This document shows positions 4,448-37,130 of a stretch of DNA of 42,907 nucleotides, piece by piece. The notes under the pieces were generated by a model. The model was not told the origin of the DNA and did not search any database. It saw only the letters and a program-made list of their open reading frames with translations. This DNA is from a virus. The position numbers and the translations under genes are program-made. The stretch is from the IMG/VR virus record IMGVR_UViG_3300044858_000992, positions 1 through 42,907 of that record; one strand, 5' to 3'. Position 1 is the first letter of the stretch. Each line of letters opens with the position of its first letter.

Positions 4448-6074
<1,627 letters not shown>

Positions 6075-22843: not shown

Positions 22844-23050
22844 ATGACACGCAAAGACTATGAACTAATAAGCGAAGCAATCCGCAACACTCGCGCAAAT
22901 GAAATCCAAATGGGAGCAGAAGGAGCAAACCTTCAATTTGTTGAAGTGATTCTCTCCTCCGTTGCTCAGCAACTCTCCGTCTTACTCGCCGGAGATAATT
23001 CCAAATTTAACACCGAAAGATTCTTGAACGCTTGCGAGGTCAAATACTAA
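22844..23050 (+). CDS. early small protein (68 aa)
   Basis: The ATG at 22844 follows GAAAAGGGG with a 7-base spacer; the frame is open to a GTG at 22787, but that leader has no ribosome site. The sequence is MTRKDYELISEAIRNTRANE, then LQFVEVILSSVAQQLSVLLA and FLNACEVKY. It is a mostly helical protein of a type commonly found as a small early gene in aquatic and actinobacterial phages (start MTRKDYELI). Function unknown. It is the first gene of the rightward island. Confidence 0.75.
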   Translation: MTRKDYELISEAIRNTRANEIQMGAEGANLQFVEVILSSVAQQLSVLLAGDNSKFNTERFLNACEVKY

Positions 23051-23056
23051 GTCGAA

Positions 23057-23072
23057 ACCGCCTTCGGGCGGT
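23057..23072 (+). terminator. ACCGCC-TTCG-GGCGGT hairpin
   Basis: A perfect 6-bp GC stem is capped by a UUCG tetraloop, 6 bases after the stop of the first island gene. No T-run follows, so it may be an RNA end protector or an attenuating stem rather than a full terminator. A second repeat-like block (AGGGTAGAGTGG...CTCTCCCTA) follows at 23075-23099. Confidence 0.55.
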
Positions 23073-23132
23073 CTAGGGTAGAGTGGCTCTCTCCCTACTG
23101 ATGAGACAAGCCAAAGAATGAAAGGGTAAAAA

Positions 23133-26503: not shown

Positions 26504-26877
26504 AGTGGAAGACCATAGTCTAGGTGGAGGAAGCCAACGAGTTTCATTATCTTGCGGGTATCAGAGAACTCAGTAGTAGCAGGCATCCTTCTCTCTTCCC
26601 AGGCTGGTTCGGGAACTCTAGATAAATCAAAAGCCCAGACACCTTGCGGTGTGGAGTTAATGTAATAAGGAGTAAGAGAGCCAGCTTGATTTATTAGACG
26701 GCGATACTTCATCTCTTCTATCAGCAGGTCTGGATAGTGGGTATGCCTACACTTTAATTCTATATATAAACCTTTGCCCGATGTAGTACAGTCGAAAGAA
26801 TCGTAAGCGCCTTCTGATTTCTCTAAGTCGGGGAAGTGTGTACCTTTAAGATAATCGAATAGCTCTTGTTCTCTCAT
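26500..26877 (-). CDS. PD-(D/E)XK nuclease-like protein (125 aa)
   Basis: The sequence shows YDSFDCTTSGKGLYIELKCR near residues 25-45, a D...ExK-type site on two strands, followed by a charged helix (LLIEEMKYRRLINQAGS) and a beta hairpin (PQGVWAFDLSRV). This pattern matches small restriction-like or VRR/Holliday-type nucleases. Its ATG overlaps the upstream TGA. It may act in DNA processing or host DNA degradation. I infer the family from motif pattern only. Confidence 0.65.
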   Translation of the reverse strand: MREQELFDYLKGTHFPDLEKSEGAYDSFDCTTSGKGLYIELKCRHTHYPDLLIEEMKYRRLINQAGSLTPYYINSTPQGVWAFDLSRVPEPAWEERRMPATTEFSDTRKIMKLVGFLHLDYGLPL

Positions 26878-27506
26878 TGCCAGGGACTCTCCCCGCCGAG
26901 TAGATTCTGGAGCTTACGCATAGAATGATTAACCTTTCTATCGGCAGTAGAGAGGGCGCAACCTAGATACTCAGCCATCTCTTGGAGGGTAAGGTTCTCG
27001 TGGTATCTCTTGATAAGTATGTCTTTATCTACCACATCTAACTTCAGGTAAGCCTTCTTTATATCTATTAGGATAGCCAGCAGGTTGCCACCTTCAGCCG
27101 GAGCCGAGGCTCTGCGTGGTTGCCCATCGTTAATCATCTCTTGTGCTTGCTCTAATACTGTCCCGTCTAGAACTGATGAGATGACGTGAGGTAGGAGCTG
27201 GGCTAGAACTAGCGTATCGTAGAAGGACTCATCGCCTATCTGATAGCCAGACTTCTTAGCCTTCTCTTTGCGAGCATAACGCTCTGCATTACGGCGCATC
27301 TGCCAACTAATTCGCTTCTCATTTATTGTACGCTGTAATTTATTCTCTTCATTCAATAGCGTAGCGTAATGCTCTGCCCTACTTAAAGCCCAGGCGTAGC
27401 ACTCTTGGGTTATATCATCCCGCTCTACCCATTGACGGAAGCGTCGGTGAATTGATGACGCTACCGGAGGAATCAAATCGTAGAAAGCAGGATGCAGTTC
27501 AGTCAT
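26874..27506 (-). CDS. sigma-70-like transcription factor (210 aa)
   Basis: The N-terminal half has a region 2-like helix set (RFRQWVERDDITQECYAWAL, with DDITQE as in ECF factors). The C-terminal part is a region 4-like helix-turn-helix: DILIKRYHENLTLQEMAEYL, then GCALSTADRKVNHSMRKLQ. The overall length and order fit an ECF-type sigma or an anti-host transcription factor. It would guide host RNA polymerase to phage promoters, possibly the late region. It overlaps the downstream and upstream genes by 4-8 bp. Regions 2 and 4 are separated by an unusual 90-residue charged insert. Confidence 0.75.
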   Translation of the reverse strand: MTELHPAFYDLIPPVASSIHRRFRQWVERDDITQECYAWALSRAEHYATLLNEENKLQRTINEKRISWQMRRNAERYARKEKAKKSGYQIGDESFYDTLVLAQLLPHVISSVLDGTVLEQAQEMINDGQPRRASAPAEGGNLLAILIDIKKAYLKLDVVDKDILIKRYHENLTLQEMAEYLGCALSTADRKVNHSMRKLQNLLGGESPWQ

Positions 27507-28906: not shown

Positions 28907-29547
28907 CGCACTCCTCCTAGTAGGTTATTCAACGCGTCAGGTCCTTCTGCCAGATAGAACTCGTTGATGTCCATACCTGGTGGTAATTGTACTATTTGCC
29001 CATTTGTCAACTCACCTGCGACACGCCGAGAGAACTCTGCTCCAGGATTAGAGCCATCTTCTTTCACATCATTGTCGCCAACAATATAAACTGTATCAAA
29101 TCCACTAAACAATCTAGCAAAGTGTGGCTTCCAAGCTGTAACACCTGGCACACCAACTGCTGGAATGTTACACATACCCGATAGAACTACTGCATCTAAC
29201 TCACCTTCACATATCACAATACTTCCAGCATCTAAAGTTACGTCGGCTACGTTGTAGAGATGAGCCTTCTGACCAAGAGGTGAACCATACTTAGGTGAGC
29301 CACCATCTAATCTTCTAAACTTAAAACCAACGCAATGACCAAGGACTGTGATGTAGGGAATGGATAACCAACCCTCGTGCATCTCGTGTCCTGCGTGTGG
29401 TGAGACGATAGTGCCGAGCATAAACTGCCGAGCAATATCCTCAGATATTCCACGTCCTTCTAGGTATTGCACGGCCTCTGCGCTTAGATTCTGAGCGTAC
29501 CGTTGCGCCGCCTCCAGCAAGGATTTCATCTGCTCGCTCGACTGCAT
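28903..29547 (-). CDS. DNA primase TOPRIM part (214 aa)
   Basis: It makes RNA primers together with the zinc protein upstream. N-terminal region: AQRYAQNLSAEAVQYLEGRG, then GISEDIARQFMLG, as in DnaG-type proteins. The TOPRIM core has IVICEGELDAVVLS (catalytic Glu) and VYIVGDNDVKEDGSNPG (acidic GDND). Start is ATG at 29547; M7 (29529) is also possible. It overlaps the CHC2 gene by 107 bp in a +1 phase, so the primase is split or joined by frameshifting. A helicase domain is absent. Confidence 0.88.
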   Translation of the reverse strand: MQSSEQMKSLLEAAQRYAQNLSAEAVQYLEGRGISEDIARQFMLGTIVSPHAGHEMHEGWLSIPYITVLGHCVGFKFRRLDGGSPKYGSPLGQKAHLYNVADVTLDAGSIVICEGELDAVVLSGMCNIPAVGVPGVTAWKPHFARLFSGFDTVYIVGDNDVKEDGSNPGAEFSRRVAGELTNGQIVQLPPGMDINEFYLAEGPDALNNLLGGVR

Positions 29548-29916: not shown

Positions 29917-30332
29917 TTTGTTTCTTCCTTCGGTTCTTCTTTTGGTTTAAGAATCTCCGTCGATGTTATATCACCTTGTGGTGTTGGCATCTGCCCTATC
30001 CATTTCTCTAGTGTTGTTACTACCCAAGCATCTTCGATGCTGGCATTACGTCTCTTGACTATCACAAAGGCCGGAGGTGCAACCACTTGCCCTCTAGCCT
30101 TTGCGTAGTTATGCGTTTCCTTCATTGCTTCGTCCCAGAAGGTAGGCAAATCTAGTTTCTTTCGGTTCTTACATTCCAAAATATAGGTCTGACCTGCGAT
30201 TATGGTAACGATGTCACCTTCATCTGAGGCCCCGGCCTTGGCTAATCTTTCAGCAAAGTGTCCCAGTTTGCGTAGATATTTCATCACATCTGTCTCAAAC
30301 TTTGAACCCTTAACCTTGTTGTAACTACTCAT
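29913..30332 (-). CDS. Holliday-junction resolvase-like nuclease (139 aa)
   Basis: I choose M5 of the frame (ATG at 30330-30332), which overlaps the methyltransferase stop tightly. The fold shows KGSKFETDVMKYLRKLGHFA, EGDIVTIIAGQTYILECKNR (D...ExK site) and AFVIVKRRNASIEDAWVVTT. This is the Hjc/PD-(D/E)XK pattern. It likely works in recombination or junction resolution with the endonuclease VII-type protein. The C-terminal tail is acidic and disordered (ILKPKEEPKEETK). Confidence 0.8.
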   Translation of the reverse strand: MSSYNKVKGSKFETDVMKYLRKLGHFAERLAKAGASDEGDIVTIIAGQTYILECKNRKKLDLPTFWDEAMKETHNYAKARGQVVAPPAFVIVKRRNASIEDAWVVTTLEKWIGQMPTPQGDITSTEILKPKEEPKEETK

Positions 30333-30906
30333 CGCGTACTCCAAGAAGTACCTGTGACCAGCCAGCTACATATAGTTTATTTACTATACGGTATCCGCCC
30401 TGTGTAATCAGGTTGTTATACCCCTGCTGGTCCCAAGCCCATAGATGAAACTCATAATGGTTTATGTTGCTCTCATTGTAAGGACTGCTGGCAACAATAA
30501 ACTTAGATGGTAGTTCTCGCACCACTTTGTGTGGTTCAATCATATGCTCAAGAGTTTCAGTTAAGATAGCAACGTCACCATACTCAATGTCATCAGACAC
30601 AAAGTCTGTGTATCTAGCATCAACGTTCCTTACCTGAACTGCATAGTCCACATTAGCCTGAAGTAAATCATAACCCCAGACTTTTATGCCTGAGTTCTTG
30701 AGTAGTTGAAGTAGTCCACCATCACCGCAACCTAAATCAACAGCAGTCTTAGCACCCATACCAATAGCAACGTTAACTAATGAAGCAGCAGCGTGGAGTC
30801 TTTCCTTGTGCGTATCTTCTTCTAGATGATGAGCAGCTTGTCTACCTTTATACCATTCAGAAGTAGCAAACTCCGATGCGTTACCATCAAATAGTTTCCA
30901 TTCCAT
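30325..30906 (-). CDS. class I SAM-dependent methyltransferase (193 aa)
   Basis: Motif I is KTAVDLGCGDGGLLQLLKNS (near residue 55), the acidic end of strand 2 is VWGYDL, and motif IV/V is VAILTETLEHMIEPHKVVRE, followed by FIVASSPYNE and a post-core beta hairpin. The pattern is of small-molecule or sugar methyltransferases, not DNA methylases (no NPPY/DPPY). Context next to an epimerase and glycosyltransferases suggests sugar O-methylation. A second, related methyltransferase is at 31766-32311. Confidence 0.88.
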   Translation of the reverse strand: MEWKLFDGNASEFATSEWYKGRQAAHHLEEDTHKERLHAAASLVNVAIGMGAKTAVDLGCGDGGLLQLLKNSGIKVWGYDLLQANVDYAVQVRNVDARYTDFVSDDIEYGDVAILTETLEHMIEPHKVVRELPSKFIVASSPYNESNINHYEFHLWAWDQQGYNNLITQGGYRIVNKLYVAGWSQVLLGVRDE

Positions 30907-31769
30907 TAGCGGATACCTTTAACTGCCATATCGATACCTTGTTCCAAAGTAATCTTTGGCCTGTAGAATCCAAGCATAAAGTCATTGTTGGATACGCGGT
31001 GCATACAACCAACAGGTTTATCTGGTCTTGTAACTATCTCACCTTTATATCCCACTGCATCCATACACATCTGAGCCAGCTCCAAGAATGAGGTTGACCT
31101 ACCCCAACCAAGATTAGTAGGTCCGGTAATTCCTTGGTCCAATGCAGTCATAACCGCACTAACGATGTCTCTGATATGAATGAAATCTCTTGTCTGTTCT
31201 CCAGTTCCCCACACTTCAAACGGGTCTGCCTTATCGAGCGCTCTCTTGACATACATCGGGAACGGATAGGTCAAGTCTTGGTCTGTACCATACCCGCTGA
31301 ATGGCCTGAAGATATAAACATTATCCACAAATGACGATAGGTATTCACCCATCAACTTGCTCATTCCGTATGTCATATCCGGCATATTCAAATGTTCCCA
31401 GCAGGACATCTTCTCAGATAACCTAACGTAACGATGATGAGTTTGTAAAGATATTGGATATGCAGCAGAACTAGAAAAGTAAACTACCTTCTCAGGTTCA
31501 GTCCTAAGACACCACTGAAAGAACTCTGAGTCAATACTGAAGTTATCTGCAACCGCAAGTGGGCGACCCTCGATGGATTCACGCCCACCTACGATAGCTG
31601 CTAAGTGTATTACCAAATCAAACTTTGTATAGTCCCGCTTGAAGAATGTTCGGCAGTCTAAACCCTTCTTGATGTCAACCTTTGTGATGATGGTATCTTC
31701 TCTGTCTAGAGCTTCAACAAAGTATCTACCAACGAAGCCTTCGCTTCCAGTAATTAAAATCTTCTTCAC
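30906..31769 (-). CDS. NAD-dependent sugar epimerase/dehydratase (287 aa)
   Basis: I choose the GTG at 31767-31769 (MKKILITGSEGF) because it overlaps the preceding TGA; an earlier GTG at 31781 is possible. It is an extended SDR: GSEGFVG NAD-binding loop, LVIHLAAIVGG, SSSAAYP, and the catalytic YGMSK. The later SGYGTDQD and TGEQTRDFIHIRDIVSAV are typical of nucleotide-sugar epimerases or reductases (GDP-fucose synthase or GalE type). It would supply an activated sugar to the phage glycosyltransferases. The exact substrate cannot be read. Confidence 0.9.
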   Translation of the reverse strand: MKKILITGSEGFVGRYFVEALDREDTIITKVDIKKGLDCRTFFKRDYTKFDLVIHLAAIVGGRESIEGRPLAVADNFSIDSEFFQWCLRTEPEKVVYFSSSAAYPISLQTHHRYVRLSEKMSCWEHLNMPDMTYGMSKLMGEYLSSFVDNVYIFRPFSGYGTDQDLTYPFPMYVKRALDKADPFEVWGTGEQTRDFIHIRDIVSAVMTALDQGITGPTNLGWGRSTSFLELAQMCMDAVGYKGEIVTRPDKPVGCMHRVSNNDFMLGFYRPKITLEQGIDMAVKGIR

Positions 31770-32311
31770 TTTGCCACCCACATCTGATAGTCGTATTCAA
31801 AATCCTCGCTGAAGAAGTGTAGTACATTCAACATATAAATCTTAAAACCGGCTCGCTGTAACATATCTTTGATACCATCGGTATCCCAGCCCCAATAGTG
31901 TTCTGGGTTGTTATTATTGGTTTCATTAAGTGGTGTAGATACGAATAACCACTCAGTCTTTTCTCTGATTTTAGATAAAGTAAAGTCTGGATTATCAAGA
32001 TGCTCAAGAGTTTCCGAGCAGATAAACAAATTAACCTTTGGTATCTGGTGTATGGTTGCCTCTATTGCTCCGGTGTATTGGTAACCAGGAGCATAGTCTC
32101 CAATGTGCTTTTCGTTAGCACTTATGCCATTGATTATTGAAGCATCTCCTGCCGATAAATCAGCAGCGGAATTAAACTCAAATGGTTTAAGCATTCCGAT
32201 ACTGGTCTGAACCCTGACCTTATGGTCAAACCATTGGCTGTGGTTATGTGGCGTAGCGTAGATATTAGCCAGCTCGCCATCGCTATACTTCTCCCTAAGC
32301 CTTACTCGCAT
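31766..32311 (-). CDS. class I SAM-dependent methyltransferase, second (181 aa)
   Basis: Core motifs: AADLSAGDASIINGIS (motif I, lacking the usual GxGxG), LFICSETLEHLDNPDFTLSK, and FVSTPLNETNNNNPEHYWGW. The final part YMLNVLHFFSEDFEYDYQMW is beta-rich. The first motif is weak (SAGDASI), so binding of SAM could be altered or the enzyme partly degenerate. Its general similarity to the 193-aa methyltransferase downstream suggests an old duplication flanking the epimerase. It overlaps both neighbours (4 and 17 bp). Confidence 0.8.
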   Translation of the reverse strand: MRVRLREKYSDGELANIYATPHNHSQWFDHKVRVQTSIGMLKPFEFNSAADLSAGDASIINGISANEKHIGDYAPGYQYTGAIEATIHQIPKVNLFICSETLEHLDNPDFTLSKIREKTEWLFVSTPLNETNNNNPEHYWGWDTDGIKDMLQRAGFKIYMLNVLHFFSEDFEYDYQMWVAK

Positions 32312-32975
32312 CGGTCACCGCCATCAATACTTTAATCGCATCATCCTTAAGTTGAGTCTCGCAGTATTCTTTGAATGCCAAGGCATCGTGGTTAGATACA
32401 TCCGATGAGTTAACCTCTAGATATTGTGCATCTGATTGACTCTTACCAGCCATATAGTGCATATGCTCTACTATCACATCTGCCCTGTAGTCTAAACAGG
32501 CAAGCACTTGCCCAAAGAACTTCCAGAAGTTATCCATAAACAAATGAATCTGTTTCGGCGGAGCCATAAAGCCTAACGTCTTGATGATATTGGTTGACAT
32601 CATAACCATAGTTGGTAGGTTCTCACCCTGGAACAAGTCATTACCATAGGCAATACCAAATCCTCTATTCTTAATTGTCTCGTATAACTTCTCATCCCAG
32701 CCTTCAGTTCTAACCAAGTGGTCATCACCCATAAAGGTAATCGTCTCATACTTATCGGCATACCTAGTCGCCAGTAGATTCAAGGTGCCATTCATCTTCA
32801 GCCTTGGGTTTACTTCTCTAATGACCCCATCTATCTCTGGGTAATTATCAGCATCGTCATCGTCGAGGCCAATCATAAAATCTGAAATCTTGCTGAGTTG
32901 TTTCAGCGCATCGAATGCAGTCTTAGCCTTATCTGGCCTGCCTCTTGCTGGAATTATTACTAGGTTAGTGTTCAT
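32295..32975 (-). CDS. glycosyltransferase-like protein (226 aa)
   Basis: It opens MNTNLVIIPARGRPDKAKTA, followed by DFMIGLDDDDADNYPEIDGV with the acidic metal cluster and ITFMGDDHLVRTEGWDEKLY with a GDD site. This is a GT-A-type nucleotide-diphospho-sugar transferase pattern (family 2-like). The C-terminal part has CLDYRADVIVEHMHYMAGKS, a possible acceptor site. It is coupled with the GT25-like gene by an ATGA overlap. Confidence 0.8.
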   Translation of the reverse strand: MNTNLVIIPARGRPDKAKTAFDALKQLSKISDFMIGLDDDDADNYPEIDGVIREVNPRLKMNGTLNLLATRYADKYETITFMGDDHLVRTEGWDEKLYETIKNRGFGIAYGNDLFQGENLPTMVMMSTNIIKTLGFMAPPKQIHLFMDNFWKFFGQVLACLDYRADVIVEHMHYMAGKSQSDAQYLEVNSSDVSNHDALAFKEYCETQLKDDAIKVLMAVTDASKA

Positions 32976-33553
32976 AGGTATTTATCCGTTACGTCTCGGA
33001 ACTCCTTTTCAATATCTGAGTAGCCTGGCGCTTGACCTACTAGCGCTGGCTTAGGGCAAAAAGCGTTAATGTATGGATGCGTTGATGATAATGCAATATC
33101 TATTGGCTTTGGTTTACAGGCTTGAGAGTATGCCTCTTGCATATAATGTTCATTGACGCCGTAAGCGTGGGCAGAATAACTCTCTATCATCTTTACGATG
33201 CCCTCCTTATATGCTTTGTAAACTAAATGCCAAGCTCCTAGATATAACATATCCCATCTCTCCGGTAGTTCCTGGTAGAACTGCGGAAATTTAGTATCAA
33301 ATTCAGCATCAAATAAAGCATCATCTTCAAAGACAAACAAACGCCTTACTCCGTTTTCTATTGCATCTTTGAATACAGCTCTATGACTATCTGCACAGGC
33401 CCAAGTTGGAGGTAGGCTTGAGTTAGCAGGTATCGCTGAGAATCTTTCATACTTGATTCCAAACTTTTTAGCCTGAGCATCGAATTGCTCCAACCTATCA
33501 GGCCTAGAGTCTAGGTTGATGACAACTATCCGGTCAAAGATTTCGTTAAGCAT
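32972..33553 (-). CDS. GT25-like glycosyltransferase (193 aa)
   Basis: The start MLNEIFDRIVVINLDSRPDR is the family 25 signature (vvINLdsrpdR), then the acceptor/metal part WACADSHRAVFKDAIENGVR, followed by LFVFEDDALFD. GT25 contains bacterial lipooligosaccharide galactosyltransferases and animal procollagen galactosyltransferases. That makes it notable in a phage with a long collagen-like fibre. It overlaps the DnaB-like gene by one base, so it is part of the replication operon transcript. Confidence 0.88.
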   Translation of the reverse strand: MLNEIFDRIVVINLDSRPDRLEQFDAQAKKFGIKYERFSAIPANSSLPPTWACADSHRAVFKDAIENGVRRLFVFEDDALFDAEFDTKFPQFYQELPERWDMLYLGAWHLVYKAYKEGIVKMIESYSAHAYGVNEHYMQEAYSQACKPKPIDIALSSTHPYINAFCPKPALVGQAPGYSDIEKEFRDVTDKYL

Positions 33554-35018: not shown

Positions 35019-35966
35019 TTATATTCCTCCAGTTTGTTTAACGGAAAGCCTTGCGCTTTCCTTGCCCTGCTTAGTCGGTACGAAGCCAAGTGCTTTCTCC
35101 ACCGCTTCCTTATCGACTGTATTGTTTTGGACTGTCGTCCATTTAATCTCGAAACCAGATTGCGTTACGCCGAGTAATCCAGTTAGACCATCTCGCAATG
35201 CTTCCTTTCGTTCGGTCAGTTCCTTAATCTGGTTGTCGAGCTGTAGATATTCCATAGCAGACTTGTCTGCATCAGGATTATCAATGATAGGTAATTCAGT
35301 TTTTGTACGTTCTTTTTTTAGACCAACGCATCCCATCTCGCCTGTTGAGTCATAGTACTTGCAATAGAATTTGCAGTAAGACTCATCGCGTTCTGGTGCT
35401 GGTGCTTCAGCAGAATCTTTGATAGCAGCAAGCCAGTCTAAGGCTTCCAATGCCACCTTCTCATCGTATGGTTCTGAGTGGACCTTGATGTCTCTCTCAT
35501 CACCATCTCTTGGTATGGCTACCAAATTTACAGTTTTGGGCTTCCCCACCCCAGACTTTTCAATCAGGTAGCCATAGACCTGTACTTGCCAACGCTGTTG
35601 TTGACTTGGAAAGTAGGAAAGGTTCTTAGCCTTAACTGTTTTCCAGTCGATGACGTCTCCTGTGTCCGGCAGGAAGGCGTCGACGTGGGCTTTCATACCG
35701 TTATATTCAACGGTACTTTCAAGTAGTATTGAGTTGTTACCAGCGAAAGCAGACTCGATGGCAGAATGTATTGCTGTGCCCATTATGGCAGCGAGCTTTA
35801 GTTCTGCGTCGTTCGTCTCGGGCTGGTTGTTGAGTCGATACCAAACCTTACGGCGGCACCCACCCAATTCTGATGGACCAATCTGTACCTGTGTAGACCT
35901 TGGTCGGTTGTTCTCTCTGTCGTGCAGAGCCTTAACTAATAAATCTTTTATATCCATTCTGCCCAC
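35019..35966 (-). CDS. Cas4/RecB-like Fe-S nuclease (315 aa)
   Basis: PD-(D/E)XK family: GPSELGGCRRKVWYRL (first Cys), MGTAIHSAIESAF (motif His), AHVDAFLPDTGDVIDWKTVK (the D...DxK catalytic site) and QRWQVQVYGYLI (motif Gln-Tyr). Three more Cys follow in YCKFYCKYYDSTGEMGC. Four Cys in this order make a 4Fe-4S cluster, as in Cas4 and AddB-type nucleases. A coiled coil follows (LDNQIKELTERKEALRDGLT). It probably processes DNA ends. It lies with the WhiB and DnaB-like genes in one operon. Confidence 0.88.
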   Translation of the reverse strand: MGRMDIKDLLVKALHDRENNRPRSTQVQIGPSELGGCRRKVWYRLNNQPETNDAELKLAAIMGTAIHSAIESAFAGNNSILLESTVEYNGMKAHVDAFLPDTGDVIDWKTVKAKNLSYFPSQQQRWQVQVYGYLIEKSGVGKPKTVNLVAIPRDGDERDIKVHSEPYDEKVALEALDWLAAIKDSAEAPAPERDESYCKFYCKYYDSTGEMGCVGLKKERTKTELPIIDNPDADKSAMEYLQLDNQIKELTERKEALRDGLTGLLGVTQSGFEIKWTTVQNNTVDKEAVEKALGFVPTKQGKESARLSVKQTGGI

Positions 35967-36130
35967 CTGGTAAATGTAATGTTAAAGAATAAGAAATTCA
36001 ACTGTAAAACTGATGCTTCTAACTTGTTTTCTTTGAAAGACCTTAATTGGTAGTAATCAAAACCGAGAGCAAAGTTATTCAAATAATGTCGGTTGATATA
36101 GATACTATGCTTCTTAAAATCTTTTTGCAT
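35948..36130 (-). CDS. small basic/aromatic protein (60 aa)
   Basis: The ATG at 36128-36130 overlaps the peptidase stop (TGATG), with GAAAGGAG before it. The product is MQKDFKKHSIYINRHYLNNF, then ALGFDYYQLRSFKENKLEAS and LNFLFFNITFTRWAEWI. It is AT-rich and rich in Phe/Tyr. It overlaps the nuclease gene by 19 bp. No family is known; the tight coupling is the main evidence. Confidence 0.6.
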   Translation of the reverse strand: MQKDFKKHSIYINRHYLNNFALGFDYYQLRSFKENKLEASVLQLNFLFFNITFTRWAEWI

Positions 36131-36693
36131 CAATACTCCTTTCGTTGGACAACCAACTGTATTGGAGGGCAGGTATGGACGTCAAGCACCGATGCAATCT
36201 CAACAGCTTTCTCGGCGTGTTTCACAGGGTCGATGCGAAGTACGCGAGGGCTGAGGCCGTAAAGATAACCAAGGCCGAAAGCGCCACCCGACCCAAGACC
36301 GTAGCATCCGTAATCTGATTGTATAAACGATAGGTCCACAGCGATATGAAAGAGGTTACCGTTGAAGGCAACGAGGTAATCAAAGCCTGCGTCCTTCTCT
36401 TTAGTTGCTTCAAATGGGTCATAACTATTCTCCTTAAACGCCGCGAGTATGGACGGCAGTATCTTCTTTCCCATCCACTGAATAGGGTCTGCGCCTTTAT
36501 AGCTCGGCGGATTCCAGTTATAGGCAAGGATGTCACCAGGTCTAGCATCGCCTGTAATACCCAGCAGATACTTACCAACGGAGATTATCTTCGGTGTTGC
36601 GGTAGCAACAGTCCTCTGATTATCTTCGGTTATCTGACTATCTGCTGCAATAACACAGCGGTCATCTAACTGGATACCTATGAGTGTGGTCAC
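36130..36693 (-). CDS. proteasome beta/HslV-like Ntn hydrolase (187 aa)
   Basis: The start is GTG, giving Met-Thr-Thr-Leu at the N terminus. After removal of Met, Thr1 becomes the nucleophile. The order TTLIGIQLDDRCVIAADSQI, then TATPKIISVGKYLLGITGDA matches the proteasome beta/HslV fold, with Asp17 (in AADS), Lys33-34 (TPKII) and a GxxGDxxxGxxL turn. Later GSGGAFGLGYLYGL and KHAEKAVEIASVLDVHTCPP match helices of that fold. No alpha subunit or ATPase partner is visible. It may form a self-compartmentalised peptidase, perhaps acting on host or phage regulators. It is the first gene of the leftward operon. Confidence 0.87.
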   Translation of the reverse strand: MTTLIGIQLDDRCVIAADSQITEDNQRTVATATPKIISVGKYLLGITGDARPGDILAYNWNPPSYKGADPIQWMGKKILPSILAAFKENSYDPFEATKEKDAGFDYLVAFNGNLFHIAVDLSFIQSDYGCYGLGSGGAFGLGYLYGLSPRVLRIDPVKHAEKAVEIASVLDVHTCPPIQLVVQRKEY

Positions 36694-36718
36694 AGAAGAA
36701 TCTTACCTTTCCTCCGGC

Positions 36719-36737
36719 GTGTCGCCCTTAGCGACAC
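36719..36737. promoter_or_regulatory. GTGTCGC/GCGACAC inverted repeat in divergent promoter region
   Basis: A perfect 7-bp stem with a 5-base loop lies 25 bases before the GTG of the peptidase gene. TAATAAT on the minus strand and TACAAT on the plus strand occur just to the right (36740-36756), so promoters in both directions are plausible. The stem could be an operator or a leader RNA hairpin. Confidence 0.5.
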
Positions 36738-36845
36738 ACGGCAGATTATTACAATATGAGCCGAAGGCGAATTACAGACGGCCCCTTACAGGGCCGAGGC
36801 GGTAGCCGAGAGGCGACCGACCACAGGAGGGAGCCGTGCCGAGCA

Positions 36846-37076
36846 ATGTGGTTCCGTCTACTTAGGCTGCGGAAAGAAAGCCTACCACCAATACAAGCTG
36901 CTGACCTTCGCTCTGTTGGTCCTACTCACGCCTGTACCTGTGGTTGTACAGTCTTTAATACTTACGTACAGTTTGAAGATTATGAAATCTGCTGGTATGC
37001 CCTTGATGTTCAATGCGCTAACTGTGGCAACTTACTTAAAGCTCCTTGTCCTATAGATAAACCTGACCAAATTTAG
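36846..37076 (+). CDS. zinc-ribbon protein on the opposite strand (76 aa)
   Basis: It is the only plus-strand gene between 26.3 and 42.9 kb. The C-terminal 50 residues are THACTCGCTVFNTYVQFEDY, then EICWYALDVQCANCGNLLKA, with C-x-C and C-x2-C pairs forming a zinc ribbon. The start is uncertain: ATG at 36846 has GGAGGGAG 13-15 bases before; a longer frame from 36756 is encoded across GC-rich hairpins and looks non-coding. Codon use is gene-like only in the second part. It faces the lysis terminator (37082-37111). Confidence 0.6.
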   Translation: MWFRLLRLRKESLPPIQAADLRSVGPTHACTCGCTVFNTYVQFEDYEICWYALDVQCANCGNLLKAPCPIDKPDQI

Positions 37077-37081
37077 GCAAC

Positions 37082-37111
37082 AAAAAAAGACCCCACCGTT
37101 TCCGGTGGGGC
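37082..37111 (-). terminator. strong Rho-independent terminator of the late block
   Basis: Stem CCCCACCG (37091-37098) pairs with CGGTGGGG (37103-37110) around TTTC. On the minus strand it is followed by a run of seven T (37082-37088 read as A). It stops leftward transcription of the tail and lysis genes before the separate leftward replication operon, and could also slow the plus-strand gene end. Confidence 0.9.
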
Positions 37112-37130
37112 CTTGCCTCGCGCTACTAAA

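Follow-up and report, generated by a model that had tools for sequence, protein, structure and literature searches.

The window analysed here is the whole 42,907-nucleotide stretch of the IMG/VR virus record IMGVR_UViG_3300044858_000992, and the question raised by this locus is what a phage-encoded peptidase of the proteasome/HslV type could do when it leads an early operon and is encoded without an ATPase. A first inspection of the letters and open reading frames (the sequence-only reading) had proposed such a peptidase, with an exposed N-terminal threonine, in a phage of Actinobacteria. We followed this proposal through the gene, its fold, its relatives and its surroundings.

The peptidase gene and its active site

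The gene and the codons of its predicted active site were located as follows:

36130-36693, minus strand: gene of a proteasome/HslV-like N-terminal threonine peptidase of 187 aa, starting with GTG (GTG-ACC-ACA), assigned from sequence, profile and fold
36688-36690, minus strand: Thr1 codon (ACC) in the sequence, the predicted nucleophile once the Met is removed; T2 in 81/81
36640-36642, minus strand: Asp17 codon; D18 in 81/81, invariant in the 32-row alignment A2
36589-36591, minus strand: Lys33/34 codon; K35 in 81/81, invariant in the 32-row alignment A2
36550-36552, minus strand: Gly47 codon, oxyanion hole position; G48 in 81/81, invariant in the 32-row alignment A2

The N-terminus of the encoded protein is M-T-T-L, and the alignment of 81 sequences of close relatives showed no variation at M1, T2, T3, D18, K35 and G48 (Met counted). 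The GTG-ACC-ACA start giving Met-Thr-Thr, and the presence of Thr1, Asp17 and Lys33/34, were thus as the sequence-only reading, which gave no strand, had described them, and Gly47 can be added to the set. An ATG or a GTG is found directly 5' of the Thr-Thr pair in all but one of 80 relatives, the sole exception (L027) having an ATT at the start-codon position. An in-frame stop is located a few codons upstream of the start in the window and in most relatives, which leaves little room for a propeptide. The N-terminal propeptide, a trait of 20S beta subunits, is absent from the window peptidase, whose start codon immediately precedes Thr1, in agreement with the earlier prediction that this threonine is exposed.

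One scan of IMG/VR gave at least 594 relatives of the peptidase, and the median dN/dS was 0.14 (NG86, 1727 pairs). By these sequence comparisons, 36130-36693 is a real gene, far beyond chance, and its family is kept under purifying selection.

Family assignment, predicted fold and phylogeny

The window peptidase matched PHROG_1040 ('peptidase HslV family') with an E-value of 8.9e-21 and fell below the threshold of Pfam PF00227 (17.8 bits, gathering score 22.4). Its score was 24 bits with the HslV model TIGR03692 (curated cut-off 157.75) and 19.3 bits with the 20S beta model TIGR03634 (cut-off 224), and the search with TIGR03690, another curated 20S beta model, gave no match. Measured against these curated cut-offs, the peptidase is neither an HslV nor a 20S beta subunit. 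A profile search of solved structures with a 20-row profile placed BPH (5ovs) first, with an E-value of 2.5e-11 over residues 2-180, followed by HslV (1.9e-9), the 20S beta subunits being at 2.4e-5 or weaker.

The AlphaFold2 monomer model, made from a 32-row alignment, had a pLDDT of 90.4 and a pTM of 0.87. Its strands and helices followed one another as in an Ntn sandwich, and both helix pairs were present, including helices at residues 50-59 and 70-88. Comparison of the model with the PDB by Foldseek again gave BPH 5ovs as the top match (3e-11), then HslV (about 1e-9), while comparison with viral models gave 38 matches at E < 1e-3, among them one from Gordonia phage Daredevil and others whose entries bear the name HslV or proteasome. 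A predicted fold lacking the Ntn sandwich had been named beforehand as the result that would speak against a proteasome/HslV-type Ntn hydrolase. The sandwich was found, and the PHROG match, the model and the Foldseek results all support the assignment. The predicted Ntn beta-sandwich, together with Thr1, Asp17, Lys33 and Gly47, places the protein in the Ntn/proteasome superfamily.

In a 42-row tree, in which the two 20S beta sequences are 100% identical to PDB chains, all of the phage homologs and the close prophage and plasmid copies formed a single group (support 96/95). Within it, Met-Thr-Thr proteins from actinophages formed one subgroup (90/83) and Met-Thr-Cys proteins, mostly from phages of Proteobacteria, another (99/95). 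Among the cellular families BPH was nearest to the phage group, and the window peptidase was placed outside the BPH clade, although AU tests did not reject alternative deep groupings. Grouping the early clade alone with HslV was marginally rejected (p 0.040) and grouping it with 20S beta was borderline (p-AU 0.062, at a cost of 10.9 lnL), whereas joining the whole phage group to HslV (p 0.53) or to 20S beta (p-AU 0.43) was not rejected. The phylogenetic comparison with BPH, HslV and 20S beta that had been suggested with the sequence-only reading gave BPH as the nearest family, and the AU tests did not discriminate among the orders of the three relative to the phage group. Cellular relatives were represented, in one scan of genome contigs, by only two gammaproteobacterial loci with 27% identity, one of which adjoins an integrase-like ORF.

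Host and position in the early operon

The terminase of the window was nearest to those of the Planktophila phages OX376640 and OX376641, then to those of Streptomyces phages. These two records are labelled ct2KA10 and the first carries the assembly name LanE43-AprE7; going by this name, they correspond to E7 and F5, two Planktophila phages whose isolation host was Ca. Planktophila LanE-43 (PMC10202952). The matches of the DnaB-like protein were almost all actinophage and a WhiB gene is present in the window. Since terminase and DnaB are nearest to actinophages and a WhiB gene accompanies them, the actinobacterial host proposed earlier is secure on sequence grounds. The phage family is abundant in freshwater, with hundreds of contigs.

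The peptidase gene is flanked in the window by:

37087-37114, minus strand: intrinsic terminator closing the late/lysis (endolysin/holin) operon, 12-bp stem and T run
35019-35966, minus strand: next operon gene and conserved neighbour, a Cas4/PD-(D/E)XK exonuclease, identified by profile matches

The order is late/lysis terminator, peptidase, then the Cas4-type exonuclease, L5 gp49-like, WhiB and DnaB-like genes. By this gene order, the early operon of the window lineage begins with the peptidase gene, confirming the first reading that it leads the replication operon with a regulatory region of its own. An extra set of records was chosen by the portal gene to avoid circularity. In this set the peptidase occupied the early position in 7/7 window-type records measuring 37 kb or longer and was located just before the exonuclease in all nine records holding the exonuclease.

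Several other features were observed in the window. A cluster of glycosyltransferase, epimerase and methyltransferase genes, located between primase and helicase (30325-33553, minus strand), suggests sugar modification of DNA or of the cell surface. A collagen-like protein of 425 aa with long glycine-rich GPT/GAT-type repeats is encoded at 4448-5725 (minus strand). A complete type II hammerhead ribozyme lies in a gene-poor stretch at 23050-23116 (plus strand; Rfam RF02276, 40.4 bits, gathering score 37) and was not found in the six related loci or records searched.

The upstream region

The region upstream of the peptidase gene contains:

36700-36705, minus strand: TAAGAT, a -10-like hexamer 6 nt 5' of the start codon, leaderless promoter candidate
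36715-36737, minus strand: operator-like inverted repeat GTGTCGC-n5-GCGACAC with a conserved ACACGCCG extension (alignment A3, dereplicated loci)
36748-36771, minus strand: conserved TTCGCCTTCGGCTCATATTGTAAT upstream block (alignment A3)
36846-37076, plus strand: divergent gene encoding a small protein with CxC...CxxC (zinc-ribbon-like), with relatives in 126/133 early-type loci

The whole of 36694-36771 (minus strand) is highly conserved, from the TANNNT -10 element through the inverted repeat with ACACGCCG to the ATTCGCC...GGCTCATATTGTAAT block. Of the 36 dereplicated loci, 35 have a TANNNT hexamer whose end lies 5-11 nt 5' of the start codon, compared with a mean of 7.2 and a maximum of 15 in 500 shuffles, and a Shine-Dalgarno-like core within 12 nt of the start was found in only one of the 36 dereplicated relatives. 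From these sequences the conserved early promoter appears to be leaderless. The inverted repeat, as GACACGCCG or AACACGCCG, is present in 36/36 dereplicated loci, and its right arm, ACACGCCG, was invariant in 30/30. A conserved RNA structure was also considered for the upstream element and dropped, RNAalifold having given no consensus pairs; because of this lack of predicted conserved pairing, the element was read as a DNA operator/promoter. The divergent CxC...CxxC gene shares the intergenic region with the peptidase promoter, and its ORF had no Pfam match.

Two further observations concern regulatory sequences. An exact second copy of GCGACACGCCG is found at 29018-29028 (plus strand), in the primase gene region and on the strand opposite to that of the operator copy. 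The phage also encodes a sigma-70-like factor (PHROG_354; 26874-27506, minus strand), a candidate reader of non-standard promoters.

A small protein coupled to the peptidase

Downstream, the peptidase gene overlaps a second gene:

35948-36130, minus strand: undescribed beta-rich protein of 60 aa, its start overlapping the stop of the peptidase gene in TGATG (translational coupling)

The coupled small protein has a length of 60-67 aa across the relatives and a dN/dS of about 0.29. Its gene is present in 133/133 near-kin early-type loci versus 0/161 E7-type loci. When loci were found by the small protein alone, the peptidase ended at the start of the small gene in 69 of 80, and in most others it lay a little upstream of that position or was truncated by the end of the contig. 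No significant relative of the small protein was found in Pfam, PHROG or INPHARED; its model, four strands at moderate confidence (pLDDT 75.6), had no match in the PDB.

An obligate partnership between the two proteins was rejected, as the small gene is missing in 3/9 early-type records of the independent portal-selected set. The more distant early-type records G009, G010 and G012 carry other short ORFs in its place or have no counterpart. The small protein is, by gene content, a frequent, non-obligate companion of the peptidase, and shared descent of gene order is a sufficient explanation of their linkage.

Proposed function and alternatives

Because Thr1, Asp17, Lys33 and Gly47 are conserved and the fold is that of an Ntn hydrolase, an active threonine peptidase is predicted. 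The host methionine aminopeptidase would remove Met1 and so expose Thr1, and the subunits would self-assemble into a homomeric compartment by analogy with BPH and HslV, which are homomeric rings without alpha subunits. The absence of an ATPase partner, noted in the sequence-only reading, was confirmed: a search for the ClpX/HslU-type AAA+ domain (PF07724, AAA_2) gave no match in the record, and hence no HslU-type partner beside the peptidase as in HslV systems, while the same search was positive in 14/14 control genomes. Without an AAA_2-domain ATPase in the record, the peptidase would act alone on unfolded or short substrates or borrow a host factor. We propose that the compartment would cleave peptides and proteins that are only loosely folded, needing no ATPase from the phage and presumably no ATP. 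Operon position and promoter lead to the prediction of immediate-early expression, the peptidase being probably produced from a leaderless mRNA as soon as infection begins. During takeover, its substrates would be host or phage-regulatory proteins or peptides, and in most close kin the co-translated 60-aa partner would act together with it. This explanation as a whole, a catalytically competent Ntn hydrolase near BPH/HslV that is homomeric, ATP-independent, made immediately on infection and engaged in protein degradation during takeover, seems to us reasonably probable. It builds on the family and fold of the peptidase, on its conserved active site and the purifying selection, on its place in the operon and the promoter signature, and on the lack of an AAA+ gene in the record. 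A doubtful extension of it is a phage protease of two components, with the small protein taking over from the ATPase as a cap, adaptor or substrate selector; the pair would be fired immediately on infection from the leaderless promoter.

The missing ATPase gene, the purifying selection and the frequent coupling to a dedicated small protein would also suit a specific processing enzyme, one that would cleave or ligate a single defined protein of the host or the phage instead of acting as a bulk peptidase, and the superfamily does include a specific ligase, connectase (PMC8665760). However, the secondary structure predicted here lacks the two-helix insertion that connectase has between S3 and S4, and the nearest folds are the barrel-forming BPH and HslV, which makes such a protease/ligase unlikely. 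Cooperation with a host unfoldase (ClpX, HslU or ARC/Mpa-type), or joining or disturbing the host 20S proteasome, has in its favour that Actinobacteria often have 20S and ARC/Mpa and that the grouping of all phage homologs with 20S beta was not rejected. The profile and the fold are nevertheless closest to the homomeric BPH and HslV, above 20S beta, the curated 20S beta and HslV cut-offs were missed by far, and a tree uniting 20S beta with only the early clade is costly. The earlier suggestion that the protein joins the host particle is therefore not favoured, and we hold a host partner of any of these kinds to be quite improbable.

A role as a capsid or virion maturation protease is suggested by the E7-type phages, LanE43-AprE7 and its kin, in which the homolog belongs to the late operon and immediately follows the portal gene, as head proteases usually do; 68 of 80 E7-type portal loci have the peptidase in their flank. 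Early expression is thus not general for the family. Nevertheless, the gene is in the early operon in the window lineage and among non-structural genes in other phages. Moreover, four E7-type loci with the same portal (L326, L342, L350 and L390) hold another small ORF or nothing in the peptidase slot, and two E7-type records of 37-40 kb (G016 and G018) have no homolog anywhere. By these counts the gene is widespread yet replaceable in E7-type phages. An essential head-protease role is unlikely since such near relatives do without the gene, and we give a maturation protease very little credence.

Comparison with known systems

Phage proteasome homologs, PPH and AAH, were described by Fuchs, Alva and Lupas in 2021 (PMC8665760), and the window peptidase, from an actinophage branch, adds to this kind of phage gene. 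The sequence-only reading mentioned neither these described homologs nor the coupled 60-aa gene and the apparently leaderless promoter. Like PPH and AAH, it is a phage-borne Group I proteasome homolog without an AAA+ partner (PMC8665760). It is unlike PPH, whose hallmarks are a length of about 140 residues and a missing helix H2 (PMC8665760), in having 187 residues and two predicted helices in the H2 region. AAH, compared here by its published description, was not found in any Actinobacteria-specific phage in that survey (PMC8665760), whereas the window phage and its kin infect Actinobacteria. The literature searched contained no study of the function of any phage proteasome homolog.

The best solved match by profile and fold is BPH (5ovs/5ovu), whose chain also starts at the catalytic Thr, with no propeptide and no known dedicated AAA+ partner (PMC8665760). 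Its identity to the window peptidase is about 23%, and the tree tentatively places the latter outside the BPH branch. The phage group of the window (96/95) includes Microbacterium phage Pumpernickel gp135 ('protease'), Arthrobacter phage Hum25 gp81, the HslV of Actinomycetia phage DSL-LC01 and the Ntn-hydrolase of Psychrobacter phage D'Alembert, and all of the phage representatives tested match PHROG_1040. These named homologs share the Met-Thr start and the Rxxx...PP motif region with the window peptidase, but their identity to it is about a quarter to a third and their gene neighbourhoods are different. The INPHARED collection showed no coupled 60-aa partner.

The homolog of LanE43-AprE7/F5 (OX376640, OX376641) belongs to the same phage family as the window (52% identity for the portal and 46% for the terminase), with Ca. 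Planktophila as host, and the Thr1, Asp, Lys and Gly residues are conserved as in the window. It differs in its 32% identity to the window peptidase, its post-portal position in the late operon, the lack of a small partner and its optional presence in near relatives. The 2021 survey reported no AAA+ partner, few functional clues and no informative gene context for PPH and AAH (PMC8665760). The present locus places a proteasome-homolog gene in actinobacterial phages, for which the survey found no AAH, and in an informative context, as the first early gene, with an apparently leaderless promoter and a small partner, within a family that has cultivated members on cultivated Ca. Planktophila. With such a context and with cultivated phages and host, the purpose of a phage proteasome homolog becomes directly testable.
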